64,000 bases of DNA from Blepharisma japonicum (lineage: Eukaryota > Ciliophora > Heterotrichea > Heterotrichida > Blepharismidae). The stretch is taken from assembly GCA_949751835.1 (NCBI GenBank), contig CATKHK010000032.1:62001-126000 (forward strand), read 5' to 3'. The translations under genes and the position numbers were made by a program. Position 1 is the stretch's first letter. Every line of letters starts with the position of its first letter. Positions 1 through 63,268 of the stretch are shown in pieces. The notes under the pieces were generated by a model that had not been told where the DNA came from, ran no database searches, and saw nothing but the letters and a program-made list of their open reading frames with translations.

Positions 1-1742
1 GACCATCAGTGCTTTTTATAAGTTTTGCAGAGACCTTCAATTCTTAGACCATCGCTGCTTTCGGATTTATCGTCATATGAAATTTCTGAGTCGCTTAGAC
101 TGACATTTACCATTTCTATTTCGTGGAGGAGGTGCTTTTTTCGTCTTTTGCAGCCCCAAAAATCTGTCGTAAACATAAAATAGATAGGACTATATAAATT
201 TTACTCTGATTTTCCTCGATTACTTGGCAATATATGATCAAAAAGCCACGCCATGATCACAAAAATAAAAAAATTAAAAATTTGGTCTTGCATAACATCA
301 ATACTTGGAGGAATATAAAACTCAAAACCTTTTATATACCCAGATTTCGGCACCCAAAAATTATCATAAACATACTCAGTCCCAGCCTCCCATCGCCTTT
401 CAGAATAATTTGGATGACTAGATGCCTTAGTCGCAATATCATAATAAATCAATGAAAAGTTATACCCAGGATAAAATGTAAATCCTCACCTTACCCAATG
501 AGCCCAATTCGGCAATTCATTTATATGGACTAAAAGTGTGAGAAGGTGACTTTGTAAAAAACTCTGCAAAACAATTCCAAATAATAAAAATGTATAGGAG
601 ATTGTATACGCAAGTTTAGCTGAGTTTAGAACTGTTGTAAGCCAAAATCCGAGCATAAGCATTGTGATAGCAAACATCTCGAAATTAGCAAATTGAATTC
701 TGAGTAGAAATTACATGTAAGGACAATTTAAAAAGAAATCAAACTTGAATAAATACCCAGAGATAATCAAGCAATTTGTAGATAAGAAAGAAATAATTAA
801 ACCAGTGATAAACCAAGAAAGCCAAAACGAAGTACTTGATACTCCCATTACAGCAAGTCCATGACGCAATTTTAGCTCTTTTTCTTTGACAATTTCAGAG
901 GCAATCATGCCGAATATCAATAATGGTGGAATAAAAAAGAACATTGGCCCTGTCATAGAGACTGAATCATAGCCAGCCATAAGTCGATTTTTTGTTTTTG
1001 GATATCCTTGGAGTAGCATTTCTAGCTTTGGAACTTGTTTTTTAGCTACTTTTCCTTGGAATTCTAAAGTAGCTTTATCTATTGCAAGCTTGACTGCTGC
1101 AACATTTGCATCTAGAGGATCTGGGGCGCTTCTATCAAAAACATTAATTGGACTCTCAGTAAAGTTGTAAATTAATGAATATAAATAGTTTGAATATTGC
1201 CCTACAGGTCCACAAGGAATTTCTTTCAAATAATCATTATCAGGCAGTGGGAAGTTTTTCGTACACATAACAACCCCAAACCGTGTCTGATTCATATGCT
1301 TTTGTATATAATCAGTAAACTCTTTATAGCCATTTTCAGAGTAAATTCTGATGTCTTTTCCAATAGCAAGATTATGCTCTTTTGCAATCTGATTAACTAC
1401 ATATTCGCTTCATTCATTTTTCCCTCCTGTCAGGCCAAATCCGATAGTGACACAATCTTTTTCTCAGCATTTCTGGATTTTATTTATATCTCTGATTTTT
1501 GGGTTAAGTGTCAATTCACCTTCAATGTAAGAACTGACCATCCTTTGGATTACTCATAATAAAAAACATACAAAAATAGGTGAGATAATCAGAACTAAGG
1601 TAGAAAAATATTGCCTGGTAAATAATAAATAATTTTTTCATAATAAAACTCTTACTTGTGAGATCAGCTGCTTGATTTCTCATTTAAAAATAGAAAAAGG
1701 CGAGCAAGGCTTTGGTTTTTCTTGCACATTTGTATTCTCCAT
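1..1742 (-). CDS. ABC transporter, ABCA type (N-terminal part, cut by window edge)
   Basis: Likely a full-size ABCA-family lipid or drug exporter in a cellular membrane. The start ATG is at 1742 and the reading frame runs off the left edge. A cytosolic N-terminus is followed by a first membrane helix (VLIISPIFVCFLLWVIQRMV), a large soluble loop, then a cluster of helices from about residue 240 on (for example FFFIPPLLIFGMIASEIVKE), and finally the onset of the first nucleotide-binding domain (LRIEGLCKTYKK). The Walker motifs lie outside the window. This layout, with a large loop after helix 1, is typical of ABCA. Two 15-nt introns are seen at 190-204 and 700-714; removing each restores the frame across a stop. 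At least six in-frame TGA codons must be read as Trp. Substrate unknown. Confidence 0.85.
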
Positions 1743-1781
1743 TTATTACTTTAATTAAGTAATTAAGTTAAAGAATTTGCT

Positions 1782-2981
1782 CTAAGAATGGGCCTCTTCC
1801 TTTACTCCTTCAGGATGCTGCTCAGCTGCCTTTGCTGCTTTAGCTTTTTTCTTTTCTTCATCACTAGAAGAAGAACTTGATGAAGACGAAGAACTTGACG
1901 ACTTTTTATCTTTATGGTCCTTATGCTCATGGTCTTTATGCTCATGGTCTTTATGCTCATGACCTTTATGCTCATGGTCTTTATGCTCATGGCTTTCATG
2001 ATGCTCATGCACTTCAACGGTCTCGGTGGTCTCTCCATCATGATGGTGGTGGCGGTGGCGATGATGGTGCTCTCCAGATACTTCCACAGTAACTTCTACT
2101 TTCTTTTCACTTTTTCCAGATTTTCCTTTCAAGACATCGGCAGCAGCTACTTTGGCAACTGGAGGCTTATGGCTGAGTGCCAAAAGCCTAATTCCGTGAG
2201 GTGTCAATAAAGCTGCGTTGTCTTCATCTTCGAAGACTTTTAGAAAATCTTGCAAGGAAACGTGTTCTTTTGGCTTGACTTCTTTGACTTCTTCTACTTT
2301 AGCTTCTACTTTTTTAACTTCTTCCTTCTTCTCTTCCTTTTTCTCCTCTTTTTTCCCTTCTTCCTTTTTCTCTTCCTTTTTCTCTTCCTTTTTCTCTTCT
2401 TTTTTTTCTTCGGTTTTTTTCTCAGCTTTTTTATTTTCTCCTAGGAAAGTTTTGACGATATGGATAGTTGCTTTATCCTTGTATTCATTCAGAAGCTTAA
2501 CATAGGTATTCCACTTTTCTTCAGTTATTTCCGTTCCTGCACCTCGAAGTATAGTAAGTTTATTGATAGAAATTTCGACCATATCAGCAACTAAAGCATG
2601 GATTTCTGCCCTATGGAGTTCTTTAGTGTCCATAGGGTCTCTAGTTTCGAACAAGAGTTTTGCCTTGTCTCTAGAGCTGCCTTCACTTATCATTGCTCCA
2701 AGAACAAGCAGATGGCGAAGTGGGAGCTTTCCATCATGGCCTTTGAATGATGCAAAGAAATCTGCTGCTTTAGGGCTGTAAGCAGTGTTTTCTACGTTAA
2801 GGCTAAGATAAGAAACAATATCACGCCATTGCTCAGCGTTAACTTCAAAGCCTGCTGAGTATTTATGATGGCAGAAATCGACTAATTTGCAGTTATGACT
2901 GCCGTAGTTTAGCTGTGCTTCTTGACGAAGCAAAATACGCTCTTCTTCAGACAATTCTGTTCTGCTTCCTTGGCAACCCAT
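1782..2981 (-). CDS. N-terminally acylated EF-hand-like protein with acidic/basic and His-rich repeats
   Basis: A 399-residue protein of unknown function. It begins MGCQGS, a good N-myristoylation site (Gly2, Ser6) with Cys3 available for palmitoylation, so membrane attachment is likely. Residues 15-180 look like a helical, EF-hand-derived domain resembling neuronal-calcium-sensor-type proteins, but I see no complete canonical calcium loop. Residues about 185-235 are Lys/Glu tandem repeats (KKEEKKEE type), followed by a His-rich patch, a run of KDHEH pentapeptides and a poly-Ser stretch. The His-rich part could bind metal ions; this is inference. There are no introns and no in-frame TGA. The ORFs on the opposite strand here are shadows of the repeats. 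Confidence 0.8.
   Translation of the reverse strand: MGCQGSRTELSEEERILLRQEAQLNYGSHNCKLVDFCHHKYSAGFEVNAEQWRDIVSYLSLNVENTAYSPKAADFFASFKGHDGKLPLRHLLVLGAMISEGSSRDKAKLLFETRDPMDTKELHRAEIHALVADMVEISINKLTILRGAGTEITEEKWNTYVKLLNEYKDKATIHIVKTFLGENKKAEKKTEEKKEEKKEEKKEEKKEEGKKEEKKEEKKEEVKKVEAKVEEVKEVKPKEHVSLQDFLKVFEDEDNAALLTPHGIRLLALSHKPPVAKVAAADVLKGKSGKSEKKVEVTVEVSGEHHHRHRHHHHDGETTETVEVHEHHESHEHKDHEHKGHEHKDHEHKDHEHKDHKDKKSSSSSSSSSSSSSDEEKKKAKAAKAAEQHPEGVKEEAHS
1921..1995 (-). repeat. Five copies of a 15-bp tandem repeat encoding KDHEH-type pentapeptides
   Basis: Five consecutive 15-bp units (plus-strand unit close to ttatgctcatggtct) with only a few substitutions lie inside the coding region of the acylated EF-hand-like protein. 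Unit length is a multiple of three, so copy-number changes keep the frame. Confidence 0.85.
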
Positions 2982-4496: not shown

Positions 4497-4574
4497 AATA
4501 ATCTTAAATAATCGTCAATTTAAATTTTAACTTCAATTTTTTTTATAAAAGCTTAAATTAGCTAATGTTTTAGC

Positions 4575-5240
4575 TTAATGGCGGGTGTGCCTTGGTAACT
4601 GCCCTTGTTCATCATATTTGCTGGCCCAGCCTGTTATGAATTCTTCTAGCTGTTGTACGTCAGATCCATAGTCGTAAACCAAATCAGCGAAATCGCTAAA
4701 GCACTTCTCAAAGGCTTTTTCGTCTTTATCGCCACCATTATTAGCATGGCTTGCCATGCAGCTTGCAGCAGTTGCTCTCGCCTTTGCAAATTTCTGTTCA
4801 AGTTCTATTTTCATAGACTTTTGAGGCAGCATGCATAGTTGAGGGCAATCTGAAGATTCGTCTTTATTGGCATAGCAAAGATCAAGGCAGCCTTGCTTTT
4901 TAGTTTCAAGGACTTTGTAAGATGGGCTTCTTTCTATGTTCTTCTCAACTAGATCAAAGCCACTATGAAGCTTTTTAACAGATTCGAACTCGTGAGACTC
5001 TGAATTGAAAGATGCTGGTAAAGGCTTCTTTTGGGGTGCTGCAAGTTGGCTTTCTTCTGGTGCAAGCTCTGTTTTGGCTACAAGGTCTCGGTACCAGCGA
5101 AGATTCCAGGAATATCCTCCAGGAGAGTAAAGCCAGCTTGGCATATACTGAAGTCCAAGCTTGTGGCGTTCTTCAGGGTCGGACTGGTTGAGATAATAGT
5201 AATAGATCTTCCAACATATAGCTGAGAATGGGTAATCCAT
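4575..5240 (-). CDS. Unknown protein with paired CX3C motifs
   Basis: A 221-residue soluble protein, not recognised. The N-terminus is aromatic-rich (KIYYYYLNQSDPEERHKLG, then WLYSPGGYSWNLRWYRDL). Cysteines sit in a CX3C-X9-CX3C arrangement (C118, C122, C132, C136), followed by C161 and C180. Spaced CX3C pairs occur in small Tim chaperones and other disulfide-bonded mitochondrial intermembrane-space proteins, so a mitochondrial role is possible, but the rest of the sequence does not look like a small Tim protein. Ends in TAA. No intron or in-frame TGA. Confidence 0.7.
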   Translation of the reverse strand: MDYPFSAICWKIYYYYLNQSDPEERHKLGLQYMPSWLYSPGGYSWNLRWYRDLVAKTELAPEESQLAAPQKKPLPASFNSESHEFESVKKLHSGFDLVEKNIERSPSYKVLETKKQGCLDLCYANKDESSDCPQLCMLPQKSMKIELEQKFAKARATAASCMASHANNGGDKDEKAFEKCFSDFADLVYDYGSDVQQLEEFITGWASKYDEQGQLPRHTRH

Positions 5241-5350
5241 GTTTAAGATTATAATTAAATATATCCACCAAGTAAATGCTGTGATAAAGATTTAGCGAAA
5301 TTAAATTCATCTGATTTTTCAATCCATTTAAATATGATTTTCTCGACTCC

Positions 5351-10900: not shown

Positions 10901-12042
10901 ACAACGCACAGTCTGATAAGCGAAATTTTACTATTACTCTGGATAGGGAATCCAAAAAATTATCAGGAGATCCTGACCTTAAGCTAGCAAGAGATTTAGT
11001 TGCAAAGGATAATGAAATTTCTATGCTTCAATTAAAACTAGATGCTGCGAGCCATCAATGTGAAGAGCTTGAAGAGTATAATAGAGAGCTAAAAGGTAAG
11101 GAGTCTAGCTGGAGGCAAAAACTTGAGCAAGAGGTCATAAAGCATACTCAAGAAATGCAAGCTTTACGAATCCAATTAAGCCAAAAACCAGCTGAAATAG
11201 AAAGGCCTGATAATGATAAAGAATTGAAAATTTTGAAGCAAAATTTAAGGTCTTTGGAATCAGAAAACTCAAGCTTAAAATCACAATTAAAATCCCAAGA
11301 TGAAGAATTATCTGAAACTAGGGCCAATGAAACAAGGCTCAGAGATCAGCTTAAGAAAGCCCAAGATGAGTATACAAGTAAAGCTAATAAGCTCAGCAAA
11401 GCAGAATCTGAAAATTATGAAAATATTCAAAAGCAATTACAGCAAAACCTAGAAGAACTCCAAAAGGTTGTAGACTCTCAAAGAGATGAAAACGAAGAGC
11501 TTCACGAAGAAATGGAAACTCTCAAAGGAGACGTAAATCGCATGGCCTCCCTCGAGCGCTTCTATAAAGATGAAATCTCCAAACTCCAAAAGCAAAACAA
11601 AGAAAAATACCAACAGCTTAAAGACTTAGAATCTCAGCTTGAGCAGCTTCATACTGAAAAACTAGAACTTTCTAAGCAGAAAATAGAACAAGACACCTTA
11701 ATTGCCCATCTCCAAAACTCAGAAGAAGAAAAACGTAATGCAAAAAAATTAAAATCCACAATAGAGGCCCAAGAAGAAGAAATTGAAGAGCTCGCCAAAG
11801 AACTGGAAGCAAGCAAACAGGTTTATGCCACATTAGTTACTTTATTGAAATTTAAAAATACAGAAATCGAACATTATAAGAATTGGCAAGCAGGAAGGAG
11901 TGATAAAGACTACCAAAAAGAAATAGGAGATTTGAAGTATCAGGAACAAAATCTGCTTGAAAAGTAATTTTTATATAGGCTTGATGAGCAAATGACTGCG
12001 TTAAATGCAGAAGAGGAGGATACAAGTGAAGAGGATGATTAA
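7933..12042 (+). CDS. Unconventional myosin heavy chain
   Basis: An actin-based motor, about 1364 residues. An N-terminal SH3-like segment (GDLIWIYPHDELSWAPGEI) precedes a complete motor: P-loop GESGSGKTEAAK from residue 153, switch I NSSRFGKF near 208, switch II region LLDIYGFE near 430, the actin-binding and SH1-helix region (RQLRCAGMLESIRIRKAGY). IQ-like light-chain sites begin near residue 757 (AVRIQALFRGHKQKKKY). The tail from about residue 950 is coiled coil, implying dimerisation. I see no DIL, MyTH4 or FERM domain, so the class is unresolved. A 15-nt intron at 11964-11978 separates a short last exon ending NAEEEDTSEEDD; without splicing the protein ends 20 residues earlier. It converges on the next gene with 9 bp between stops. 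Confidence 0.95.
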
Positions 12043-13646: not shown

Positions 13647-15917
13647 ATGAGAATAATAGTCCGCTACCTAGAGCAGAATATTGAGCTAATCGTCGACTCT
13701 AATGCTAAAGTCAAAGATCTTCAATTAGAAATCAACAGAGTCACCTCCATTCCTCCAAATTTGCAAAAATTAAGTTTTCTTAATTCAGGGAATAAAGTAA
13801 AAATAATATAGGTATCCCTTCCTTCTTCCTCCAAACTTTCCTATTACAACATCAAAGACCGCAGTGTCCTATTTCTTGAGCAAGTATTTTTCAAATAGAA
13901 AACCATTGACAACCCTCAATCCCCTGGTGAAGACGTCCGCATTGTTAGAAGATACTCCCATCAAGCATCCCAAGACGAAATCAGCACTATTTACCAAGAA
14001 CAAAATGCTCATAGAGCTATGAGCTATTGTTATGAAAGCGAAAATTCAAATAATCTCGCTGAATGGATTACCAAAGTTGTTATTGCCTGCAGAGAAGGCA
14101 ATGCAGAAGGTTTAATAGAGACTTTACAAGACTATCAATCTTGAAGAGGCAGCAAACTTCAAGAAGAAGATGTAGGAGAACTTTTAAATAGTCCTTATAA
14201 TGGCCAATGAAGCTGCATTCACTATGCCTGCTATATGAACCATGTAAATATTCTTAAAGAGCTGCTAGAGCTTGGCGTAAACTGTAATAATATTACTGAT
14301 GACCAATGGACACCTTTGCAAATTTCATCATACCAAGGGAATATCCATTGTGTGGAGCTTTTATTGGCACACCCGCTTATACAGATTGACTTAATGACTG
14401 CAGTCAGAGGTTCAGCGTTACATATGGCAGCTGTAAGAGGGCATTTTGAGATAGTCAAACTTTTATTAGAAAATAAAGCTGATATAGGATTAGAAGACCC
14501 TGATCATAAAACTGCGCTGGAACTGTCTTCTGATAGAAAAATTGCAGAGTTGATCCCTAAATACAACGGAGTCAAAATGCTAGAAAGATTTGGGCAGAAA
14601 AATTATGAGAGACCGCTGGGATTTTGTGGAGAAGTTTGGAGTACTGGGACGTGATATATAAATGATAAAATTGTGTTTTTGATATTGGACTCGGAAAAAG
14701 GCAATTTTATACATTATGATCACAGAGACTCGTATATAGAAGAAAAACAGCCTGAAATAACGGTGCCGTTTGAAGATATAACGAAGGTCATTGCTGATGA
14801 AGCTTTAAATGATAAATACTTTTTTTCAGTCGTAACAAAAGATATTACCTTGAAATATTACACACAGTATCAAGATATGACTGAAGAATGGACCAGAAGG
14901 ATTGATTGGTGTATAGTCTATTTCCATCATGAAGCCAGACTAAAAAATGCTAAAGCATTTACAGTCCCTAAAAAAATCCCGGTAAAATCACATAAAAAAA
15001 TAGTATATGAAGAAGAGCCATATGAAAATATAGGAGAATCTGCAATTAAAAAAAGCAGCTTTGAAGTATTAGGGGAGATTGGATCTGGAAGCTTCGGAAA
15101 TGTATATCAAGTAAGAAAAAAAGACTCAGGCGAAATTTTTGCGATGAAAGCACTAAGTAAACCTATGCTGATTTCGAAAAATCAGCTTAAATATGCTGTG
15201 GCTGAGTGCAAAATATTGAAAGCTATTAAATTTCCATTTATAGTCAGGCTTTATTGGGCTTTTCAATCACAAAGCTACCTTTATATGATATTGGAATACT
15301 GCCCAAACGGCGATTTTTCCAGTCTGTTACAATTAGCAGGCCATTTATCAACTGAAGTCGCGAAATTTTATATCGCAGAAATGATCCTTGCTATCGAATA
15401 TCTCCATTCTTTTGATATCATTTATAGAGACCTCAAGCCTCAAAATTTGCTTTTGGATAGCGAAGGACATATAAAATTGACTGATTTCGGCCTTTCTAAA
15501 GAAAATGTCTCAGATAATGAACCAGCTATGTCTTTTTGTGGCTCTCCCGCTTATCTCCCTCCTGAAGTTTTAGCCCAAACTGGCTGTGGCAAATCAGCTG
15601 ATATTTATAGCATTGGGACTAATTTATATGAAATGCTTGTAGGAAAGCCTCCGTTTTATACAGAAAATGTAGCAAAGCTCTACAAAAGAATTAGCAAGTC
15701 AAGCATTAAATTTCCTGAAGACATTAATGAAGATGCAAAGGATTTAATACAAAAAGTCATGGTAAAAAATCCTGAGGAACGACCTCTTATTCATGAAGTC
15801 AAAGCACATAGATTTTTTGAAGGGTTAGACTGGGATAATATGCTGCAAAAAAAGATGACTCCTCCTATCAATATAAAAAATCTAAGAAATCTACGAGCTT
15901 CACATGTGATTTCTTAG
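13647..15917 (+). CDS. Ubiquitin-like / ankyrin / PH / AGC-type protein kinase fusion
   Basis: A 746-residue multidomain kinase. Residues 1-75 look like a ubiquitin-like fold (MRIIVRYLEQNIELIVDSNA..., with the strand-helix pattern and a PPNLQKLSF segment). Residues about 150-290 hold ankyrin repeats (GQWSCIHYACYMNHVNILKE, DDQWTPLQISSYQGNIHCVE, GSALHMAAVRGHFEIVKLLL). A PH-like domain follows (FLILDSEKGNFIHYDHRDSY up to the WTRRIDWCIVYF helix). The kinase begins near residue 462: G-loop GEIGSGSFGNVY, lysine FAMKALSK, catalytic loop YRDLKPQNLL, DFG motif TDFGLS, activation loop SFCGSPAYLPPEVL, which is AGC-like. All catalytic residues are present. Two phase-0 15-nt introns lie at 13797-13811 and 13884-13898. 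Three in-frame TGA codons are Trp. Stop is TAG. Substrates unknown. Confidence 0.9.
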
Positions 15918-23215: not shown

Positions 23216-24775
<1,560 letters not shown>

Positions 24776-27171: not shown

Positions 27172-27858
27172 ATGGAAAATAAGTAATAGAAAGCCAGACA
27201 ATTCTTAACAGCCGAAGAAGAGCTTAAAGCTAATCAAATGATAAGCCTTCTTGAACTTCATGACGAATCAGAAGAATTCCTTGAGCCTGTAGATTGAAAA
27301 TTTCTCAATCTTCCTGATTATCCTATTGTCATCAAGAACCCAATGGATCTAGGTACAATTAAAACTAAACTGAATAGAAAATTTTACCGAAATTTATCTG
27401 AATTTATTACAGATATACAGCTAATCTGAAGTAATTGCAAATTTTATAACGAACCAAGCACAGTAAAAAATAAATAGGAAATTCATCAACAGGCCGAATT
27501 TATGGAAAAACAAATGAGAAGGTATTGCATAAAATTAAGGATCCCAATGCCAAAAGGAAAGCTGCAAAGGTTAAAAGATAAAGAAGCAGCTGTAATTGAA
27601 GGTTCTGACGCTGTAACATTTGAAGAAAAATGAGAAATGATAGGAAAAATCAAAAAATTAGGTCAGTTTTCTTTAGAACAAGTTGTGCACTTAATATCTA
27701 TTAATGCACCGCAGGCAGTAGAAAATGAAGAAAAGGAGAAAGTAAGGGTAAAACTTGACGATCTTGATAGATCTACATTTACAAAACTGCAAGAAATTAT
27801 TAACGAAAGTACATCACTTGAAGGATTGCCAAGAAAAAGGCTCAAAAAGCTTAATTAA
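27172..27858 (+). CDS. Small bromodomain-ET (BET-like) protein
   Basis: A 218-residue protein. One bromodomain at residues about 14-115 (LEPVDWKFLNLPDYPIVIKN, PMDLGTIKTKLN, SNCKFYNEPST including the acetyl-lysine-contact Asn) is followed by an NET/ET domain at about 140-210 (EEKWEMIGKIKKLGQFSLEQ, then VKLDDLDRSTFTKLQEII). This is the BET family plan with a single bromodomain, as in protist and plant GTE proteins; it reads acetylated histones. The WPF shelf is replaced by a VDWKF-type segment. Two 15-nt introns: 27183-27197, only eleven bases after the A of the start codon, and 27473-27487. Three in-frame TGA codons are Trp. Confidence 0.88.
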
Positions 27859-44100: not shown

Positions 44101-46208
44101 GTGTTGATAACCAAATTTTATTAGGCACGAAGCAAAAATTGTATAAATTTGTGAATTTAATTTTTGGGTATAAAAAACAAAATAATGTTCATAAAGACTA
44201 TTTTGAAAGCGCTGTAAAATATATTAAAGCATTGTTAGAAGGAGAAATATGCAGAGAAATTGGAGAAATGATGCTCAATGAAATTAATTTTAAGGGACTT
44301 GCGGAAATTGCATTGGAAATTTATGTGAATTGTATACACCCAAATATGAAATATATTTTTCAAGAAAGAATTGAGGACCAGGTATATTCACATGATTTAA
44401 TTACCAAAATTTGGCTGAAATTTAGATGGCTTTTTAAGTCAGAAAGCTCGAAAGGGATTTCTAGAAAAGATTGAAATACGGCTATGATTGGATTTGACAT
44501 AGTTATCATTAATTTGAAGTTAAGGGATATTTTCCCTAATGAAGATGAGTTAAAATGGCTTGGATTTTCTGATAAGCTGCCTGATCATAAAACTAAGTTT
44601 AATATTGACAGCATCATTCGAAGAATAAATTTCTTAGGAGGTAGAAATGAAAGCATAAGAAACACTAATTTTATGTTTGTGCAAAAAAAATTCTTTAGGG
44701 ACTATTCCAAAGATCTTTCTATGAATATGGCTTATGAGTTTTATCTTTCCTTTATTTCTTCTGTAGAAATCGAAAAAGACGGCAAATTAGAGCAATGCTA
44801 CTTCAAAATCCCTGCGATGATCACTTTTCTCTCAGAAAAGCTGAGAGACCAAATGGCCTTTTCTGTAAGCAGAGACTCACATGAAGAAAAAATGAAATCT
44901 TATTTCCAGCTTGTTGATAAATATAAAAGGCATATGCAGCATTTACAATATTTAAGCAGGTTTAGGAATCTTTCATTTTTCTGTAGTAAGACAAAGACCA
45001 TAGAGAACTTCAGCTATGCTATGGTCGTTTTAATGAATATTTTATTGGTTTGAGGGATGACATCTGTAAATGATACTAATTTAGATGTAGGCTATTTTCC
45101 TGGGACATATTTTTTTAATATTTTTGCATCGATTTTGACAACACTAAGAGTTGTAATATTTTTTTTCAATTTGGCTGAAAATTACCCTTTGATCCTTTAC
45201 GAGCATTTAGAAAAGCCAAAAGACTCAGATATTTATAATATGCCTGCTCTCTACAAATTCCGAGGGACAATATTGATGAGATATTTCGTACAAGACTCAA
45301 CTTCTAGACGTAAAAAGAGAATGGTAGGGTCTGCTATAAAAGGATTTTATATAATGACATCATTCCAGAACTTATATAATATCTTGTTTTTCATTATTGT
45401 CTGTATAGCTTGAAATAACCCTCTTTGGTATTCTGTTTTACTTTTGGACATTCTTTATAGAAGTGAGGAGCTCAGGAATATTGTAAAAGCTGTCACTTTA
45501 AACTGGAGGCAGCTAGGACTAGCCTTAATATTAGGGTGCTTTTTTGTGTATATTTTTAGCATTGGGGCGTTTTTGTGGCTTGGAGAATACTATATAACTC
45601 AAGCAGAAGGTGCCCAGTTAACTACTTATTGTGACACGTTGCTTATCTGCTCAGCCAGCACTTTAAATATTGGAATTAGATCAGGCGGAGGGATAGGTGA
45701 TGGCATAAAATCCCCTATAATCTCAGACAACTTATACGGCTTCAGAATGCTTTTTGACATCATGTTCTTTATCATTGTAATTGTAATCATGTTAAATATT
45801 ATTTTCGGTATTATTATAGATACTTTTGGAGAACTCCGTGACGAAAGAAACGCAATAGAAAAAGACAATAAATCAATCTGCTTCATCTGTGGACGAATGA
45901 AGTCAGAATTTGAGTTGAGAGGCTCAGGGTGGACTGCACACATTCAATCAGAGCACAGTGTTTGGGCATATTTAGCATATTTAATATCAATCCAAAGAAA
46001 ATGGCTAACTGACTGTGATGGGATTGAAAAACACGTAAAATTGAAAATGAGGCAAAAAGATGTGAGCTTTATGCCTCAAAGCTCAGCTTGTTTAAAAGAA
46101 AATAAAAGAAAAACTGGGACTATTGAAGAAAGAATGAGCGAATTAAGCATAGGAATTGAAGGTGTAGGGCTTGCTTTAGCAAAATATAAAAAAACATTAA
46201 AAAAATAA
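38130..46208 (+). CDS. Inositol 1,4,5-trisphosphate receptor calcium channel with EF-hand pair
   Basis: A 2692-residue intracellular calcium-release channel, about the length of animal IP3 receptors. Seven in-frame TGA codons at otherwise unbroken positions are read as Trp; there is no intron in 8 kb. N-terminal ligand-binding/MIR region at residues about 40-430 (GDLILLMIQSPNKIYSGCLS; GERIQLHHFHSQGYVSV), RIH-type helical repeats follow. Near residues 1595 and 1631 lie two canonical EF-hand loops (DSDKNKTIDFNE, DQDGDGSITYQE) spaced 36 residues. The C-terminus has six membrane helices and the IP3-receptor selectivity filter SGGGIGDGI at 2519-2524, then IMLNIIFGIIIDTFGELRDE and the cytosolic Cys/His element CFICGRM... 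HIQSEH. The filter and Cys/His element mark it as IP3 receptor rather than ryanodine receptor. Confidence 0.95.
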
Positions 46209-48562: not shown

Positions 48563-49396
48563 TTAATTAGTTCCAGCACACGGGTCGCATATATACTGTT
48601 CACAAATAGGGAATTCCATATTAAATACAATCAGTGAGAGGGCTGTGAAATAGATTATAACACCTATAAAACTCCCATAAATAATATAGCACCATCGCCT
48701 TTCTGACTCTTCTCTTGGAATTAATGCAAAACCTAATAGACCGCCTGAAATAAAGCCACCTATATGTCCAGCTATGTCAATATTAGCTGCATCATAAGCA
48801 GACCCAAAACTAATCGCCACAATTATGATATAGACCAGCAAGTTAAAATCCCTACCTGGGCCAAATTTGTGCCAATTATAGGCATAATAGCAGCCAAAGT
48901 TAGCAAAGACTCCAAATAAAGATGTAGAAGCTCCTACAGAGACGTTTTGAGAATCCCAATACGCGCTGAAAAGGTTTCCTCCGATTCCAGAAATTATATA
49001 AATAAGTATAAACTTATAAGTCTGATAATATTTTTCTACAGCAAAGCCAATTCTTAGCTGAAAAAATGCATTGAACTATTTTACTATTACCAAAATATGA
49101 AGAGTATTAGCATGAAGCAAAATAGGAAGCACTAATCTTCATAAATGAGATTTTAGCACAATAGATGGAGTATACTAAATACAAGTCACCTTTGCCCCAA
49201 ATGTATATAAAGTGCATATAGTAGGCTCAACACTTAAAGTAAAACCAAGTGTAACTAAATAAATAGCGATCTGAGACACTGTTATAATAAAAGTAAAACT
49301 TTTAATAGAGAAGTCAGGAAATATCTTTTCTATATTGAATGCAGGCTGTTGGTTTGAAATAGGTCTATCAAATTCAAAGTGTCTTATATTTGACAT
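48563..49396 (-). CDS. Rhomboid intramembrane serine protease
   Basis: A 267-residue polytopic protein. Once two 15-nt introns (49175-49189 and 49076-49090, both phase 0) are removed the rhomboid core is complete: HLWRLVLPILLHANTLHILF (WR box and the helix-2 His/Asn), catalytic serine in VGASTSLFGVFANFG, helical GxxxG-like IIIVAISFG, and the catalytic His in IDIAGHIGGFISGGLLG. So it is predicted active. It is of the eukaryotic secretory (PARL-unlike) type with an N-terminal cytosolic tail and an extra C-terminal helix ending in a Cys-rich tail (CEQYICDPCAG). One TGA is Trp, in the conserved LWRL box. The first intron has GTGA rather than GTAA or GTAT at its start. Confidence 0.9.
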
Positions 49397-50890: not shown

Positions 50891-50899
50891 TTTTATAAG
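50886..50899 (-). promoter_or_regulatory. 14-bp element over the start codon, shared with the paralogue at 52371-52384
   Basis: CTTATAAAAATGGA on the minus strand covers the ATG of the FHA gene and is identical at 52371-52384 over the start of its shortened paralogue. Either a conserved core promoter/leader or a leftover of the duplication. Confidence 0.4.
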
Positions 50900-52021
50900 G
50901 GGATTCTATCTATATTTTCGTTTGACAATTTATATGGTAAAATCATTGATTTTTGATATCAGAATTAATATAAATCGTAATAAGACTGCATAAATAATCT
51001 TGAACAATGTTTTACTAAATAAATTTTGTAATTTAAAAGATTTTAAGCTTCATAATAGTTTAAATATATTGAATTTTATAAGCAGTCATGATTTGTGATT
51101 TCTTATTTGTGATATTTTGTAAATCTCTTATCATTTTTGATATATTTTTAAGGATTGCAAAATTTTATTTTTTTTCTGTGTAAATTTCAAAGTGAAGAAG
51201 ATGCTAAAAAAATAAAGAGCTTGTAAGAGGCAAATTCATATATTTTTTATGCAAAAATCAAATACCGCAAATATTTCGTTCCAACTGTTTTCATTATTAA
51301 ATCATCAATGATCAGACTTCATTTCTTTTATATTATAACATTAATTGATAATTTTAAAAGATAGTTATCGTATTAGAGGCATGCTATTAATAATTTTGAC
51401 TGCAGATGGCTTTTATAAAATTTGATTGCCTTCACTATTCCTAAGACATATTTAATTATAATAATAAAAATGGGATAAATTTCTAATGTTCCAAATGGTG
51501 AAAATTCTTTGAAGGTTTCTGGTTAAATAATGATGACAGCCTGGCGCGGATTCCTTTGCTTACAGCTGAACCCCAACATTTTATTAGATGGAATATTCTA
51601 AACCACTTTTATAGATCACACCTTATTAGCCGCTAAAATATTATTTAAATTTTTTATTAAACTTTATTAAAGTTATTGCTCTCCTTGATAAGAAAAATTC
51701 TATATAGTAATTTCCTAGACTTTCAATAATTTGTAAAATTGAGATAATTTTGATTTATTAAATATAGGTGAATTTTTTAATTTTGGCTGCTAATAATCAT
51801 ATTATGTTTAGTTACTTTTATTGTGTTCATAAACTCAAAATCAAACAAAACAATTTTTTTCAGCTTCAAATTGAAGCTTACCTATTCAATTGCTTAGAAG
51901 GCAAAGCAAACTGCAATTTTCCCAAAATTAATAAACATATAAAAGTTTCTGTCTGAAGATTTTTGGGACTCATAATCACTCTTTTTTAAAACTGCCCTTT
52001 AAGATTATATTTTTTTTGAGA
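50891..52021. other. Gene-poor stretch between the FHA gene and its shortened paralogue
   Basis: About 1.1 kb, AT-rich. A 62-codon plus-strand frame at 51768-51956 is probably chance. A short GC-richer patch at 51521-51580 contains a C-box-like ATGATGA (51530-51536) and a D-box-like CTGA (51566-51569), noted as a weak snoRNA candidate. Nothing else is supported. Confidence 0.45.
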
Positions 52022-52375
52022 TTAATTATTACTTTTGGCAGTAGCCTTCACAATATCGGTTTGGCCCAATGGTGGAGCTTCTTGTCTTTCATTTTCAAAC
52101 TCATATATTCTTGAAAATAAATCACGTCCCATAATTAAAGCAGCAAGTTGTGAGAAAACGTGGAGAATCTCTTTATCATTGTTTCCTCCCCTGCTTGCCA
52201 TAACAGCTACATATCTAAAAACATCTTTAACCTGCTCACAATTTGAGGTCCTCAATATATTTTCACAGGTGTCGGATATAATTCGTCTCACTTTTTCCTT
52301 TTTAGCATCGTTATTACTTCTAACAGAAAGCTCATTAAGAATGCATGAAATAGATCCGCAGAGCTCATTATCCAT
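52022..52375 (-). CDS. Shortened paralogue of the FHA protein N-terminal module
   Basis: A 117-residue protein homologous to residues 1-95 of the FHA protein at 49556-50890: both start MxxELxGxISCILNELS, and both have the block (S/R)GGNNDxExxxVFSxLAAxxM. The FHA domain and the linker are absent; the protein ends with a short unrelated tail (GQTDIVKATAKSNN). It is in the same orientation about 1.1 kb upstream, so a partial tandem duplication is the likely origin. The frame is intact, so it may be a functional stand-alone module or a young partial copy. No intron or TGA. Confidence 0.7.
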   Translation of the reverse strand: MDNELCGSISCILNELSVRSNNDAKKEKVRRIISDTCENILRTSNCEQVKDVFRYVAVMASRGGNNDKEILHVFSQLAALIMGRDLFSRIYEFENERQEAPPLGQTDIVKATAKSNN

Positions 52376-53125
52376 TTTTATAAGCGTATATTATCTATAA
52401 TTCCTTTTAAATAAAGGAAGGTAGTTAGAGCAAGATAATTGACTGAAATATAGATAAATGATAATCATGATATTCAGGGCTTCATTTTTATGGCTCAAAT
52501 ATGCAAAAAAAGCTTTGGTACGTTTTTTTTTCAGCCTGGAATTCTTGCTTTAAAGTTTTATCATGAGGGGCAGTTTAAAATAGTAGAAGTCTCTAAAAAA
52601 ATTTTCATGTGAGAACAAGCTGCTTCGTTTAGATTTTTCAATCTTAAAGCAATTTCAAGATTTTGAAGAGCTTTAAAGCCATCACTTAACACTAATAAGT
52701 TTGAGTAAGTTTGGGTTTCTTCATTTTGTTCTTACTTGAGGTTGCTATTAATATCCTCTCTCTGGATATGCTAATTCCAATTTTTGTTATCCTTTAAAGA
52801 ATGTTTAAGCTATAAACTTTTCAACTGCTATTTGGCACTTATTATAGTAAGATATGAACAATGTAAATAGATGAAATTGGAAAATCTTATACTTTATAAA
52901 TTTTTGCCTCATTTCTAAAAATGCTATCCTTTCTAGATATATGATCAAGATTCTTAACTACTCCAATACGCTGAGATTCCATATTTAATTATAAGCTTAT
53001 AAGGCAGCTTATGAATGTTCTATAAAATTTTCTTCAAATTGTGACCCATCTAATTTCATTTATTTTATCATCTATAATAAACTTAATTTTTTAATTCGCA
53101 ATGGATAATTTTTCATAATAAAAAT
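52376..53125. other. Gene-poor stretch with a possible relic frame
   Basis: About 750 bp. On the minus strand, 52558-52731 is open for 58 codons (TGA as Trp) with a helical-looking product (SDGFKALQNLEIALRLKN...) but it has no start codon and stops close upstream, so I do not call a gene. The rest is AT-rich and blank. Confidence 0.4.
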
Positions 53126-53506
53126 ATGAGCGAGAAGGAGCTTTATTGCTCTGAGTCAAGAGAATTACCCAGAGACAGACGATACGAATATTTTTTGGAG
53201 TTCATGAACAAATCCAAAACTATTTCTATGGAAATGAGAAAAGACAAAAAAGAGATTCGAAGCAAAATAAAGCCAGCTTTTGAATGATCTCAAAGGATAT
53301 TTGGGGATATTTTATTTGGGGTTGGATATGGATATTTGCTTAGCAACTGAATAAAATCAAGAAATATTTATTTTTTCACAGTAGGAGCTTCACTGATAGT
53401 TTTTAGCTATTATGATTACCAAAATGACAAAGTAGACCAATACAAATTAGCAGAAAAATATGAAAAACTTGCGCTGGATTATCACTGCAAGAAATTCAAG
53501 AAGTAA
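53126..53506 (+). CDS. Small protein with a two-helix membrane hairpin
   Basis: A 126-residue protein, visible only when TGA is read as Trp. A charged N-terminal half (MSEKELYCSESRELPRDRRY) is followed by two hydrophobic segments (RIFGDILFGVGYGYLLSNW and NIYFFTVGASLIVFSYYDY) joined by a short basic loop (IKSR), then a Lys-rich C-terminal helix (LAEKYEKLALDYHCKKFKK). This looks like a hairpin membrane protein with both ends on the same side. Two in-frame TGA codons fall at Trp-like positions at helix ends. No family recognised. Confidence 0.72.
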
Positions 53507-54254
53507 ATATAGGAATATAAGTAATAAATTCATATTTTCGATATTTTGTGTTTGATTTTTGATGCTTTTACTTTAATGAAAAAAGATATTATATATTGAA
53601 GATATTTCAAAAGCATTGAAAGTATTCTTCTATATTTAATAGTATTTAAAGCTAGCTATTATGAAATTATCCCTATAGAATCCTTGCTTTACAAAAAGAA
53701 GAAATTTTTACATCTCAGAGCAGCCAAATAGTGATTTTTGGTAAAAATCCCTTTTAGCAGCTGCATAATTATGGGCAAAATTTTTGTTTTCAAAAAGGTT
53801 AGTAATCAGCTTACATAAATATGTATTTATTTTAGTTTTAGAAGATATAAATATTAGCTATTTTATTCATATGCTATTGATTTCAACAAATATAAATAGA
53901 GTCAAGTTCGATAAACAATCATCTAATCAAATTTAAGAAAGAGATTAGATTAATAGATATCAATGATCTGTCAAAACCATTTATATATATATATGAGAAA
54001 AAGCTAGCTAGGTTGGAGAATGAGTTCTAGAATTTTCTAAGTTGTGGCGAATTGGGCATAAACACATATTTGGACTTAGGTATAAAGCTTTATCTTCAGT
54101 CCATGTTCCAGTTCTAAGAACTTTTAGGGGTGACTTAATGAAGCCAATATTCAAAACATTTGAAAATTATCTTTTATTTATATATTCGTAAGAGCCTTAT
54201 TTAAAGAAAAATATATGAATCTATATTTTTTAATGCTAGCATTCTACAATTAAA
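53507..54254. other. Gene-poor stretch with ambiguous open frames
   Basis: About 750 bp, AT-rich. Between about 54020 and 54190 both strands have open frames of about 50 codons, neither with a proper start. Not called. The TATATATATATATGAG-like run near 53982 is a simple repeat. Confidence 0.4.
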
Positions 54255-54692
54255 ATGGGTATTAACGACGAAAGCACTAATACACCCATCAGCTCATGCA
54301 GCTGCAGTTGCTCAATTTCTTTAAACCAACTATTAATGAGAAATAGGGAACTGGAAGAAAAGCTAAAAAATGAAGCCGTAGCAAGAGTAGCTGCAGAAAG
54401 ATTTGTGCTTAAATATTATAATAAACGGATAGAGGCTGGATTATGAGAGATAAACGATACAATAAGGAGGCGTTACAGTAATGATGATGTGAATACTGCA
54501 AATAGAGCAAAGGGTCAGTTAATTGATATTGTAGAAGAACCATGGGATAGTAATAATATTCAGCAAGCAATAAATGTTGCTCAATCAAGAATTCAGAGCT
54601 GCCTTTATGAGTGCAATGATACTATAAGAAGATATTATTCAAATGATGACTATAATACAGCAACTAGAATAAAAAATGCCCTGCGCGAATAA
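54255..54692 (+). CDS. Small protein with an internal 20-residue duplication
   Basis: A 145-residue protein, unrecognised. N-terminal Cys/Ser-rich motif SSCSCSCSISL, a helix (NRELEEKLKNEAVARVAAER), then two copies of the unit NDTIRR(R/Y)YSNDD(V/Y)NTA(N/T)R, at residues about 67-85 and 119-137. One in-frame TGA (Trp) lies between the first helix and the first copy. The two copies are about 80% identical, so this is a recent or constrained internal duplication. No intron. Confidence 0.62.
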
Positions 54693-54768
54693 AACTAATA
54701 CAATATCTCATAATAATTTATGGTAAACATTTTCTATTAATTTATGCCTTTCTATAGCTGACTTTTTA

Positions 54769-56414: not shown

Positions 56415-59400
56415 CTAATTGATAGAGTCTGCGTCACTATTTTCAGCTCTTGATATAAAAAAGGCGTCTAAAGTCTTATTAATTGGTTTGTGGGTGACTT
56501 GCTTATTGAACTCAAAATTATACTTCCCAGGGAACCCGTCTTCTAAAATTCTTTTAGTTTCTTCACTTACATCTACTTTTCCAGGCACTCCATTGCTCTC
56601 CATTTTATTTGCAATATCTACATCAGGTCCATAAATATCATACCTAACAATATTCGTCCCAGTGATTCCTGCCAGCAAGTCCCCAGTATGAATTCCAATC
56701 CTCATATTTAGCTCAAGGTTGTTTTCTTCATCTACTCTTTTTATTGCTTTTACCATATCAAATGCCATATTTACCATATTTTCGCATTCTTCACAAAGAT
56801 TTCTAATAGTTTTTCTTTTATCTGCATCCCTGAAACTTATAATTACATAGCAATCTCCAATAGTATGAACTTTGTATACATTGTGCTCCAAGCATAATTT
56901 ATCAAAAATTTCAAAAAATCCTGAGAGCATAGATACAACTTGTTCAGGAGTTCTTGTTGAAGAAAATGCAGTAAATCCACATATGTCAGCAAAAATGATA
57001 GTTACGTTGCTAAACCTGTCAGTTGTAGCTTGATCTTCCATCATATTTCTCACAGCATGTGGAGGAATTAGCTGTTTTAATAGTGTGTCAGTTTTTGATA
57101 TTTCACGCTTCATAAGCTTCCTAAGGTTAAAAGTGGTTCTGGATTGTTTTTCTTTGTAAAATGATACCCATATATTAATAATGCTAAAGATAACGTATGG
57201 GACTATAGTTCTTGCGATTTGGTTGTCTGATAAGCCAATACCAAAAAGAATTACTGATGGAATTATTAAGATTATAGTCGAAATCAACAAATTCCCAAAC
57301 GGCAAATAACAAGTATGCCCTATAAGCTGCAGCTCAAACAATATTTCTAATGCAATTGTATTATAAAGCGCTGCAGGCGCTTGATAAATACTAATCACAT
57401 TTAGCCCTCCTAGCACAATGAATCCCATCATAATCATCCACGAAAACAGCACCTTTCTATATATTTTTTTAAACCTCAAAATCACACTAATAAGCATCAA
57501 AATCACAAATAATTTAATTGCGATTACCTCAATTGACATATAAATTTCTGTCAAAATATAAGCTAATAAATGCACAATAGTAGCTAAAAGAATCAAAATA
57601 ATTCCTCCCCAGATTTCAAACTTAATGACAGCTTTAAATTTATTCATTTCTTTGATTCTGAATTCAGCTTCCTCTTCTTCAGTGTTATAATGGCAAACCC
57701 ACAGCATAAGGTCATCCACAAGGCCTAATTCTTCTTTAGTTTGGCCAGTTCTTCTTATTAAGTCATTTAGGACATTTTCACCTTTTTTAATAACTGAACC
57801 TTTTTCTCGGCCTTGGTAAACGGTGTAAAAACGGTTTAGCCGGGTATTGATAAAATCGTCAGTTTTATTAGACATAAAGCGGGATGGACCAGTTTCTTGA
57901 GGAGCTTCTGGGATATCTGGGGATTCTTCATCAGAAAAGGGGTCTTGGTATTCACGAGTAAGCTTGGGTTCTTCCATTGTGTGTACGATAAAAGTGTCAA
58001 GAAGACCTTTACCTTTAGCTTCAACTTGATTTGGCTCAAATAAATAAGGCTCTTCTGAGACAAGGTTGTAGGTCGACATTGAAATTTGGATGGAATCAGG
58101 CTCCTTGAGGGTGCTACACATCCTGCTAGAAGTATTTACAGTGTCTCCGACTAATGAAAATTGAGGTTTATAAAGCCCGACAACCCCTGCAATTACTGGT
58201 CCTGAATTAATGCCAATCTTTACTCTCAATTTTTCTCCAGTTTTAAGATATACATGTTCAAGCCTCTGCAAAATATCGAGGGCGAGCTCTAAAGTTCTTT
58301 TTCCATGGTTTTTAGACAGCTTAGACTTAGGAAGCAGCTTTTCGTCTTCAGCCATCCCTGCACAAGCCATATAAGTTTTATTGACAGTTTCAATTTTGGC
58401 CACACCATGGTCTTCACATAAGTTGTCTAATAAAGCAAAATATGTATCTAATAGTTCTATAAGTTCTGATGGTGCATGAGTAGCACAAATATTATCAAAC
58501 CCATAAATATCACAAAACATAACAGTTACTTCTGGTTGCTGCAGCGCTATTGCCCTCTCTCCATTTTTTACCTTGCTTTTAATAAAATGAGGGAATAAAT
58601 TAGAAAGAATTTCTAAGCCTTTATTAAATTGGAATTCGACGAGTTCTAGGTATAAATATTGAAGCTTTTTGCCTTTTTCGAGTATATAGCCTATACTTCC
58701 ACTAATCATGACAATTCCTAGTGTTAAAATCAAATAGAGAAATCCTATTAAAACCCCTTCAGTTTCGTTATAGTCTGTGGTATATCTTATAAATATTCAT
58801 ATAGAATAGCCGATTTGGTCTGCAAGATTTAGGATGAGGACAAGATAGGTATTAGTACGAAGGACTAAAAAGCTTGCAAAAGAGATGAGAGGACTAGTTA
58901 ATGAAAATTCATAGGAAAATCTGAAATTTATGATAATTTGCAGCACAAGACTGGCACCAATTCAATAAATCATTGCTTTTTTATAAATCCTAAAAACTGT
59001 TTTTGTCATCAGCACAAAGAAAACTGTTATATGAATTAAAAATAAAATTCCCAGCTCAATCCCTGTGCTCACATGTTCTTTTTCTGAATCCAGAGATTCT
59101 GCTACAATAAAGGCAGCTATTGCTATCAAAGTGGTAAATAACGACAATTTTCTCCACAATTTTTTCTTATCATTTGTGATATCTGCTTCAAATTCATTTT
59201 CTAAGTAAGGGTTATCAAATTTCAATGTAAGATGATTCATTTGATAATTAAAAACCATAGGCTTTAGATCCGGGGAATATTTAAAATTTTTGAAGCTAAA
59301 AGTCTTAGAAAAATCAGTCGAAATTTCTGTAGATAAATTTGATTTTGTATGCCTAAGGGTTGAAAACGAGCTTGCTAAAGTAGCTGAAAATAACTTATTA

Positions 59401-62400
59401 GCATAGTAAAATGGAAGCCGAAATGCTAAACATACATATGGCGTAACAAATAATAAAAATAAATAAATAGGGGTTGAATACACTTTGGTTGAAGTCCCAT
59501 GCATATAATAAGTTGCAGTACGGCCATAGTCATAAATAAATACAAAACCTAAAGCAAAAAGGCTCATAAGTACATTAGCTATAAGGAAAACCAAATTCCA
59601 TGTGTGAGCTACTATAAAGATTTCATGCATTGTGACCTGAAAAACTATTAAATACACCACAACTCCTGTGCTGAAAAAATCCTCTGTGTAGCCATCTGAG
59701 CTTAATGTGCCGTTTCTTGCAAAAACATTGACAAATAAAAAGATAAGCAAAGCTTGATAAGCTGCCATTAAAAGGTGGGCTAAAATATCTCTAAATTTAA
59801 ACTGATTTTTATTATAAAGTTCAGGGGTTTTCAGAAGGACTTCAGCCTTTTTATCCCGATCAAATATTCCCATAAGTATGACTGGGACAGCTGTAAAAAA
59901 GACATGAAAAATAGTGACGAGCCAAGAATCGTAGAGAAGGCAGGCTGAGTACATATTTTGGAATGTAAATAGAAATAGCACAAATTCTAATAAGAAATTG
60001 TTGTAGAAAATGCATTGGATCACTTTAGCAATTCTAATATAGTTCCAATGACCATGAATCAATAATAAAGGAACTAAATCTTTAAAATTCGCAATAGCAA
60101 AATCACTGCTATTGGCAGCTTGAAATCCTTCATTTCCAAGGATTCCGATCCCCACATTAGCTTCGTGAATCATAGAAACATCATTAGACCCATCTCCAAT
60201 TGCAAGAGTGACTGTCGGCTTATTTATATTTTTTTTAAAAATTTTTAGAATTTCTGCTTTTTGTAAGGGTGCAGCTCTACAGATAACTACACTTTTAGCT
60301 AGATATGCAAGGGTTATGAAAAATTCTAGGTATTTTACATTTTGGAAAATCGCCTCAAGAGATGGTCCATCAATCACAAATCCATAGTCATGAACTCTTG
60401 AAGAATTAAAAGATCCTGAATTTTTTGTATCAACTCTTCCATTTTTCCCTGGAGATTCTCATATATTGTCATGGATATCTTTAGCAAGGGGACTGTTTTC
60501 ACGGTCTGACTCATCTGGAAATGCATGCCTATAATACTCAGTTTTAAGTGTTTTGTATACTTGCCGCTTGTAGGTGTAGTTTATTTTTACAATTTCTAAG
60601 TCCGAATTAAATAAGCTACAAGCATAAGCTGCATTTACAGCAGTTTCACGCTTATCTCCTGTCAACATCCATATCTTAATTCCAGCCCGTTTCAGCGTAT
60701 CAATGGCTTCTGGTGCGCCTTCCTGAATTTTATCCTCAATCGCTACTGACCCAAGTATTGTCAAATTATTTTCCCAATTTTCTGCCACATCCCTCAGTCT
60801 CGCTTGTCTATTACTCATCGCATTTTTCGCCGAAAGCCACTGATCTTCATACATATCTGCTTCCTCTTCTGTTAAAACTTTTTTTGCAATAATAAGCGTC
60901 CTCAAGCCATTTTTTGCATGATTTTCTACCATCCCTGAGAGTTTTGTAATGTATTTTGATGAATTTTTACATCTTTGGAATAAAACACTTTCAGAGCCTT
61001 TGCATAACAAAACAGGAGGCTGGTAATCATTAAGTGGCTTTACTACAATTGACATTCTTTTTCTATCAGGGTCGAATTCATTGACTCCACAAATTTTATA
61101 TAAGCATTTGTCCCCATTAATTTTTATTTCACATAAATTTCTCTTAACGTTTCTATATTCAACTCCAGCGTGGCATGCAGCTTTAACAAGGGCTTCTTCA
61201 TCTCTAGATACACCTTTATATTCCATCCCAGTTTGGGTTTTTTCAGGGATAACTGTATGGCATAAGGCTAAAACTTCTAAAAATTCCAAGACGTGCTCAC
61301 TAGGATTGGACTCGTCCTTGACTTTTTCTTTTAATTGTTCTTGGTTATAGGTTTTCCCATGAATTATGCAGTATTTGAAAGACATTTTATTTTCTGTTAA
61401 AGTGCCTGTTTTGTCAGCAAAAATGTACTGGACTTTTCCCAGGTCTTCATTTAAATGCAAATTTTTGGCTTCAATGTTTTTCTTTTTGTCGTTGTCATAG
61501 AATCGCAAATCTCAGGCGATAAATATAGATTGGACAGTACTGACGATATCAATAACAACATAAAGAGTTATTGGGACCATATAGCTAAATAAAATTGCAA
61601 AGCTTAAAATATCATAAGCTGAATATGACCATCTATGCCCTGTAAAAAATTGATATGCATCTCTATTTATAGAAGAGTTAATAAGAGAAAGAATATAACA
61701 CAAAAGTACCATAATCCCCACAATAGAAAGCATAATTGCTAAATATCTATTCATTTGTTTTTCCAATTGACTTCTCTTGCTTGGTATTTTTTGAGTATTC
61801 ATTATTATTTTTGTATCAGTTCCTGTATATATAACAACTCCCATAATTCAATTAGTATTTTTCAACTGAGTCCCTCTATATACAATATTTTCATAAGTAA
61901 GAGGGAGTGCTCTTGGATAACTCACTAGTTTAAAGCTGCCTTCAATGCTATACAAGCTATAATTAGGATGATCAATTTTTATTACTGCACTATCAAGCCT
62001 ATATAACTGCTCTATAGCTTTTTCATAACTTTTACAATCAAAAATGGCAGCCGTATCAGGCATAGCTTTTTTAATACTAAGTCGGGTTTCACCATCCAAA
62101 TTTGAAGTTTCTAAAAAGCATATATTTTCAGGATCACTTGTAGCTAATAGTAGCAAGTCAGCTGGGACTTCCTCCTCATTTTTAACAATTATGATGTGCC
62201 CTACCCTGACCTGCATCCATTTCTCTCTAAAAAATTCCCCTCTTTCTTCACTCCATACAAGAATATCTTTAGTATTTACATGGGAGTCGCTTCTCCTTTT
62301 CAAAAAGTCTGCTAAGGCGTCATGCATTAAGGTCAGGATCAAAACAATTACAAAAATAGCTGTTGTTGACAAGCTGACATATGGGGATAAATCATACGGA

Positions 62401-62651
62401 ATATATTGAAAAAGGGTAATTATTAGGTATCAGATATTACCAAGTCTCTGAAATTGCTCAAATAAATTCATTTGAAAAAGAGTCAGATAGGTATACTTGT
62501 TTGTACTTATTTTATTATCAGGAAACACATTATTTTTATACCCTTGGCCACGGTAAATTTCAATTTCTCGCATATGAGCCTTGGAAGTATCTTTTTTAAA
62601 TGTTGTAGTGCCTGGCTTGTAAGTATAATTTGCACTCAATGGAGAAGTCAT
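56415..62651 (-). CDS. Guanylyl cyclase fused to a P4-type ATPase
   Basis: A 2078-residue membrane enzyme in one frame, no intron, several TGA codons read as Trp. The N-terminal half is a P4-ATPase (flippase-like): ETSNLDGETRLSIKKA, FADKTGTLTENK with phosphorylatable Asp413, MLTGDKRETA, AIGDGSNDVSMIHEANVGIG; ten-helix plan. The C-terminal half has two cyclase domains, each after six helices. The first (near 1377, VTVMFCDIYGF, KIETVNKTYMACAG, VGDTVNTSSRM) is C2-like; the second (near 1885, VTIIFADICGF, KVHTIGDCYVII) is C1-like with both metal Asp. This inverted order and fusion match guanylyl cyclases of ciliates and apicomplexans. Glu in KIET favours GTP; the usual Cys partner is Ser (FSLVG). 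Confidence 0.95.
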
Positions 62652-62749
62652 AAATCTATTATAAAATATTAATCAATGGAATCAATGCATATTTTGTATT
62701 TTTTTGCTAAGAGTAGCTTATTATTTCTGAATGATCGAATAAATATTTT

Positions 62750-63268
62750 ATGAAATCAATAGCAGGGATTTTTGAATCGTCATTAGACAATTTTGAAAGA
62801 GAAAAACCTATATGCAACACGCCTTTAAAGGTGGAAATGAAACCAAGTCCAATAAGAATAAATAAATTTGAATTGCTTAAAGCAGATAAAAATTTCTTGA
62901 ATTCTAAGAGATCGTTAAGAGCTGCAACCGAAAGAATACCAGCAATGACTCAGAGAAGCAAAAGCGTTAACCGATTAAATGTAAGAGATATTGATATAAT
63001 TGACATCCCCAGATCTGAGACGGAGAAATATTATTTGTCTGTAATATCAGCTTTAAATACCGACATTCACAGACTTAATTATATCCTCGAAGCCAAAGTA
63101 AGCCATATTCAGGACAAAGAAGTCGAAATTTTAAAAGAGCAAGGCAAAATCCAGCAAAGCCGATATAACGAGTTATTGCAAGAACTTGCGAATAAAGTAT
63201 CCTCTATATAGAATACAGAAATCACAAGTTTACTCTCTACAAAATTCCCGAAAATAGATAAAAAATAA
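62750..63268 (+). CDS. Hypothetical protein with C-terminal coiled coil
   Basis: A 167-residue protein. The N-terminal half is basic and disordered (SIAGIFESSLDNFEREK; RSKSVNRLNV), the C-terminal half a helix or coiled coil (LNYILEAKVSHIQDKEVEIL, KEQGKIQQSRYNELLQEL). A phase-0 15-nt GT...AG intron at 63197-63211 is proposed: it fits the pattern of all other introns here, and removing it extends the protein by 15 residues (NTEITSLLSTKFPKI, then DKK). If it is not an intron, the protein stops at its TAG, at 63209-63211. Divergent from the cyclase, 98 bp between starts. Confidence 0.65.

Follow-up and report, generated by a model that had tools for sequence, protein, structure and literature searches.

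The window analysed here, a 64,000-nucleotide (nt) stretch of the heterotrich ciliate Blepharisma japonicum (positions 62,001 to 126,000 of contig CATKHK010000032.1), contains 13 sequences of 15 nt that interrupt the reading frames of protein-coding genes, and these are almost certainly the usual tiny spliceosomal introns found in heterotrichs, here in one with UGA as a tryptophan codon. They were studied against a set of 31 hand-merged gene models, which together comprise 52,104 bases. All 13 have the form GT...YAG with an adenine at base 10 (hereafter A10); twelve begin with GTA and one with GTGA, ten end in TAG and three in CAG, and their AT content is 75.9%. Eight lie on the forward strand and five on the reverse, and every one of them is in the sense orientation of its gene. 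An earlier note on this DNA had described the same length, A10, and termini, and these hold for the full set once a single coordinate is amended: 12 of the sites that it gave are exact GT...AG 15-mers on the sense strand, while the coordinates 27473-27487 are displaced by 10 nt from the true site, 27463-27477 (GTAAAAAATAAATAG). The 15-mers are real and sense-oriented in eight gene models, and their removal restores the frames and, where this can be tested, raises the scores of the encoded proteins against known families.

The frames in question depend on the genetic code in use. With three stop codons the genes break at TGA, which is the codon found at six of the eight inspected frame ends between adjoining frames; with TGA read as tryptophan, the frames extend up to 2698 residues. 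The 31 models hold 61 in-frame TGA codons alongside 134 TGG codons, and these in-frame TGA codons rule out the standard genetic code. Twenty-nine of the models end in TAA or TAG, a choice of stops made by construction, and the remaining two are cut. Seven TGA sites are readable in alignments with relatives: the relative has tryptophan at four of these (LIN9 219, flippase 268, flippase 380, and helicase 61) and phenylalanine, tyrosine, or another residue at the other three (flippase 74, rhomboid 81, and BET 81). The window reads UGA as tryptophan, and this excludes Stentor, with its standard code, as the organism concerned.

Since the introns of the earlier note had been ascertained through the frames that they break, we applied a codon-model gene finder that was blind to the motif, being given GT and AG only and trained on 19 long frames of the window with TGA as tryptophan. 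When run with one length at a time, from 10 to 30 nt, and with three intron penalties, it placed eight introns at 15 nt under every penalty and zero to three at each of the 20 other lengths; no 16-nt intron was placed by this fixed-length scan of the window. The eight sites (700, 11964, 13797, 13884, 23765, 25470, 27183, and 27463) share a GTA start, a YAG end, and A10, features that had not been imposed on the finder, and all were already on the earlier list. When lengths from 10 to 60 nt were allowed to compete freely, 15 nt was again the commonest, accounting for six of the 20 introns placed under the lowest penalty and five of the eight under the highest. In the same free-length run, zero or one intron of 15 nt came from each of nine control pairs of terminal dinucleotides, the exception being TA..GA with three of 49 at the lowest penalty. 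A direct count of the motif likewise sets this length apart: 15-mers of the form GTR-N6-A-N2-YAG occur 17 times in the sense orientation of the models (the 13 listed and four others) versus four times in antisense, and the equivalent 12-, 13-, 14-, 16-, 17-, and 18-mers occur six to nine times in sense and five to nine times in antisense, with no sense excess. Fifteen nucleotides is the sole length in clear excess.

The second body of evidence comes from homology across the junctions. In comparisons of Pfam scores between spliced and intron-retaining proteins, in which the two-intron genes kept both 15-mers together and one of the two lies within the domain, the score drops upon retention in all five genes tested. 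In the ABC-transporter-like gene on the reverse strand, which is cut by the window edge, the phase 2 intron at 700-714 (GTAATTTCTACTCAG) was found by the blind scan, and the ABC2_membrane_3 domain scores 65.8 bits spliced, 58.7 retained, and 44.4 with a rival 57-nt intron at the same position; hence, homology favours 15 nt over 57 nt there. The same gene has a further phase 2 intron at 190-204 (GTAAAATTTATATAG), which is recognized by its motif and frame and was missed by the blind scan. The DEAD-box helicase gene on the forward strand has a phase 2 intron just 38 nt into the gene, at 23254-23268 (GTAATTATAACTCAG), likewise recognized by motif and frame, and a phase 0 intron at 23765-23779 (GTAAAAAATATGTAG), which was recovered blind and over whose junction Dbp2 aligns without a gap (DEAD, 167.9 bits spliced versus 165.2 retained). 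The bromodomain-BET gene, also on the forward strand, contains a phase 2 intron at 27183-27197 (GTAATAGAAAGCCAG) and the phase 0 intron at 27463-27477, both placed by the blind scan; polybromo bromodomains align gap-free over the latter junction, and the bromodomain scores 78 bits spliced versus 72.1 retained. In the rhomboid gene on the reverse strand, iRhom1 aligns gap-free over the junction of the phase 0 intron at 49076-49090 (GTAATAGTAAAATAG), which the blind scan missed, and the Rhomboid score falls from 100.6 to 88.1 bits with retention; the second phase 0 intron of this gene, at 49175-49189 (GTGACTTGTATTTAG), which has the sole GTG start, is recognized by motif and frame.

Homology speaks more faintly at two other junctions. 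The LIN9-like gene on the reverse strand has a phase 0 intron at 25470-25484 (GTAAGGATTATGTAG), placed by the blind scan, across which LIN9 aligns without a gap at 7.5 bits; this is too weak to count alone and weakly favours 15 nt over a competing 30 nt. The ankyrin-kinase-like gene on the forward strand, whose domains were judged by eye, spans 13647-15917, and its ubiquitin-resembling N-terminus is split by the phase 0 intron at 13797-13811 (GTAAAAATAATATAG), a blind-scan find; the ubiquitin alignment crosses this junction with a 4-residue gap nearby. A second phase 0 intron of this gene, at 13884-13898 (GTATTTTTCAAATAG), was also found blind, as was the phase 2 intron at 11964-11978 (GTAATTTTTATATAG) near the 3' end of a myosin-like gene on the forward strand. 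Thus, six of the 13 junctions are supported by homology, four clearly (700, 23765, 27463, and 49076) and two weakly (13797 and 25470). Together, the blind scan and homology back nine of the 13 introns through one or both lines of evidence, with 190, 23254, 49175, and 63197 identified by frame and motif alone.

These comparisons also bear on whether the 15-mers might be translated, with the internal UAA or UAG read through and five residues added to the protein. Such a reading draws on the fact that all of them are multiples of three and that the frame continues past the stop. It would have to accommodate the lowered family scores of the retained forms in the five genes tested, the Dbp2, iRhom1, and bromodomain relatives that run gap-free over three junctions, and the lack of any internal TAA or TAG in the 31 models beyond the 13 sites, which is in part a matter of construction. 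We consider translation of the 15-mers to be extremely improbable. Another possibility is suggested by ciliate biology, namely, that the 15-mers represent minute internally eliminated germline segments, excised from DNA and not from RNA. Ciliates precisely excise intragenic DNA, and about 70% of the predicted germline segments of Blepharisma are intragenic (PMC9942856). However, each of the 13 reads GT...AG in the sense direction of its gene, with genes on both DNA strands, and there is no reason for DNA elimination to track gene direction; further, inserts of 15 nt were absent at every penalty when the finder was given the reverse orientation, CT..AC, and the motif matches the one published for introns. 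On account of the sense orientation in particular, we reject DNA elimination as having barely any chance of being correct, and we retain RNA splicing as the explanation.

Several observations nevertheless weigh against a uniform set of 15-nt introns. The blind scan missed five of the 13 (190, 23254, 49076, 49175, and 63197), and the free-length run preferred other lengths at three sites (57 nt for 700, 30 nt for 25470, and 22 nt for 63197); hence, some of the boundaries require evidence other than that of the finder. The introns of other lengths that it proposed are treated here as artefacts, a treatment that the homology check covers for the 57-nt version at 700 and, weakly, for the 30-nt version at 25470. 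The homology comparison in turn covers six of the 13 sites, all but 190, 11964, 13884, 23254, 27183, 49175, and 63197. In the ankyrin-kinase-like gene, the spliced ubiquitin domain scores 25.2 bits, below the Pfam cut-off of 25.4, as opposed to 22.8 retained, and Ubiquitin_2 is still matched with the 15-mers in place. Finally, an adenine conserved near the 3' end of introns is described for Stentor coeruleus and three spirotrichs and was not reported for the other species compared with them (PMC10946202).

The weakest case is the phase 0 intron at 63197-63211 (GTATCCTCTATATAG) on the forward strand, in a gene without an assigned family. Here in particular, but also at some other sites, the match could be fortuitous and the gene could end at the TAG. 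The blind scan missed this site, and the finder made it 22 nt long once lengths could vary. It sits where the frame ends, in a protein without a Pfam match, so that its removal merely adds an 18-residue tail to the protein; the four antisense occurrences of the motif indicate the rate at which chance matches arise. Conversely, the full motif is present, and the spliced frame does continue for those 18 residues. Chance matches at some sites thus strike us as a real possibility, albeit the less probable one.

A close published parallel is found in S. coeruleus, where the 8806 annotated introns comprise 8173 of 15 nt and 633 of 16 nt, a presumed branch-point adenine occupies position 10 in 8005 introns, the AU content is 75.63%, and the commonest intron is GUAAUUUUUAUAUAG (PMC9505925). 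The introns of the window share with these the 15-nt length, the GTA start, A10, and an AT content of about 76%, and the intron at 11964-11978 is identical in sequence to the commonest Stentor version; the two differ in that Stentor uses the standard code, whereas the window has UGA as tryptophan. The lack of 16-nt introns among those placed here is not significant for a set of 13 (p = 0.38 at Stentor's rate). Blepharisma stoltei is described as having introns predominantly of 15 and 16 bp, UGA as tryptophan, and a genome of 66% AT (PMC9942806); compared with this published description, the window is alike in its short introns, its code, and its AT content of about 67%. Taken together, the code and the intron length fit a heterotrich of the Blepharisma type best. 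More generally, about 95% of heterotrich introns are 15 bp and the remainder 16, while in the karyorelict Loxodes magnus, which represents the sister group, the mode is 17 bp and the mean 19.3, with introns below 16 bp being negligible (PMC11441545). Very short introns are common to both, with those of Loxodes being longer. Multi-exon genes make up 18-20% of heterotrich genes (PMC10946202), as against eight intron-bearing models among the 31 here. The pattern of 15 nt with A10 is accordingly already known for heterotrichs, namely, Stentor and Blepharisma; the earlier note had correctly recognized and interpreted the introns and had not connected them with this published description. What the window provides is a confirmation, from raw sequence, of a class of spliceosomal introns that ranks among the smallest known. 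It also carries a lesson for annotation, in that gene finders that bar 15-nt introns or read TGA as a stop would fragment these genes.

By analogy with the published relatives, we propose that the introns are removed by the major spliceosome. The elements available to it would be a 5' site of GTA(A), a branch point at A10, and a 3' site of YAG; branching at A10 would produce a lariat loop of 10 nt with a tail of 5 nt. The suggestion that A10 is the candidate branch point, already made in the earlier note, agrees with the branch-point position published for the 15-nt introns of Stentor.

A less expected aspect of the introns is the relationship between their phase and the stops that they contain. 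Eight are in phase 0, five in phase 2, and none in phase 1, and, as had been claimed, retention of any of the 13 would add an in-frame stop: TAA at bases 2-4 in the five phase 2 introns and the final TAG in the eight of phase 0. The accompanying caution, that phase 1 introns would escape a reader who relies on broken frames, was sound, but no GTA-type match in phase 1 emerges from the gene models. This comes from a search of the 31 models for GTA-N6-A-N2-YAG that ignores stops and is hence free of that ascertainment; it returned 13 sense matches (12 of the listed introns and 63098-63112), three antisense matches, and none in phase 1. The additional match at 63098-63112 on the forward strand (GTAAGCCATATTCAG) is in phase 0 and without a stop, and could be a stopless intron or ordinary coding sequence. 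Codon shuffling predicts 1.3, 2.4, and 1.2 chance GTA-type matches in phases 0, 1, and 2, respectively; the stopless matches are no more than expected by chance, which argues against any sizeable hidden class of stopless introns. The lack of phase 1 matches against about 2.4 expected might point to an avoidance of decoy introns, for which the numbers are too small. Among GTG-type matches, three are in phase 1 (2096-2110, 4949-4963, and 34157-34171), compared with 1.9 expected from codon shuffling. The last of these was rejected as an intron and is coding, with UPF1 of PDB 2wjv aligning through it gap-free; the first two sit in proteins without Pfam matches.

The choice of 3' terminus also follows phase, with CAG confined to phase 2 (three of five, versus none of eight in phase 0; p = 0.035). 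When phases are dealt randomly among the 13 introns, all of them bear stops in 1.7% of deals. Both of these tests share the frame-break ascertainment, given that stopless introns do not break frames. Sampling from the base frequencies of the 13 introns gives stop-bearing shares of about 0.77, 0.23, and 0.81 in phases 0, 1, and 2, respectively. One interpretation, on which we are evenly divided, is that introns survive solely where their retention creates an in-frame UAA or UAG, with phase 2 being tied to GTAA (five of five), phase 0 to TAG (eight of eight), CAG to phase 2 only (three of three), and phase 1 unoccupied (0 of 13), such that the splice-site consensus doubles as a stop signal read by nonsense-mediated decay. 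Retention of 15 nt, a number divisible by three, leaves the frame of an unspliced transcript intact, so that its exposure to decay would hinge on a stop in frame. In this regard, the genome encodes the decay factor UPF1: the gene for this nonsense-mediated decay helicase lies at 32922-35477 on the reverse strand, with 851 residues, no intron in its model, and a score of 956.7 bits to PDB 2wjv, Regulator of nonsense transcripts 1. UPF1 may act on the intron-retaining transcripts.

A related tendency is known from Paramecium, whose short introns are about 25 bp; 18.7% of these are multiples of three (3n), and a figure of 59.2% is given for 3n introns that terminate prematurely if retained (PMC7858049). 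The tendency of 3n introns to produce a stop upon retention is common to both, with all 13 introns here being 3n and all 13 carrying a stop. Jaillon 2008 is reportedly the original source on the short introns of Paramecium and their stop-on-retention. Among the papers listed by literature searches on the subject, nothing on the phase or in-frame stops of Stentor or Blepharisma introns came to light; other sources may treat it. The coupling of phase and stop may be taken as a lead and not a result, thirteen introns being insufficient as proof; the wider question that it raises is whether a link between phase and splice-site sequence ensures that every frame-preserving intron holds a stop.

Beyond the intron-bearing genes, the window is gene-dense, apart from nearly 4 kb at 50891-54768 without a gene model in this set. 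Neither Rfam at the gathering score nor ARAGORN gave a match in the window. For the myosin-like protein, the only one tried in this manner, no relative was confirmed among 13 genome-contig and three viral-contig pattern matches. The forward strand encodes, at 38130-46208, an IP3/ryanodine-receptor-like channel that has EF hands and is 2692 residues long; its model is intron-free and contains TGA in frame seven times. On the reverse strand, a single frame of 2078 residues at 56415-62651 contains both a P4-ATPase (phospholipid flippase) and nucleotide cyclase domains; such P4-ATPase/cyclase fusions occur in other ciliates and in apicomplexans.

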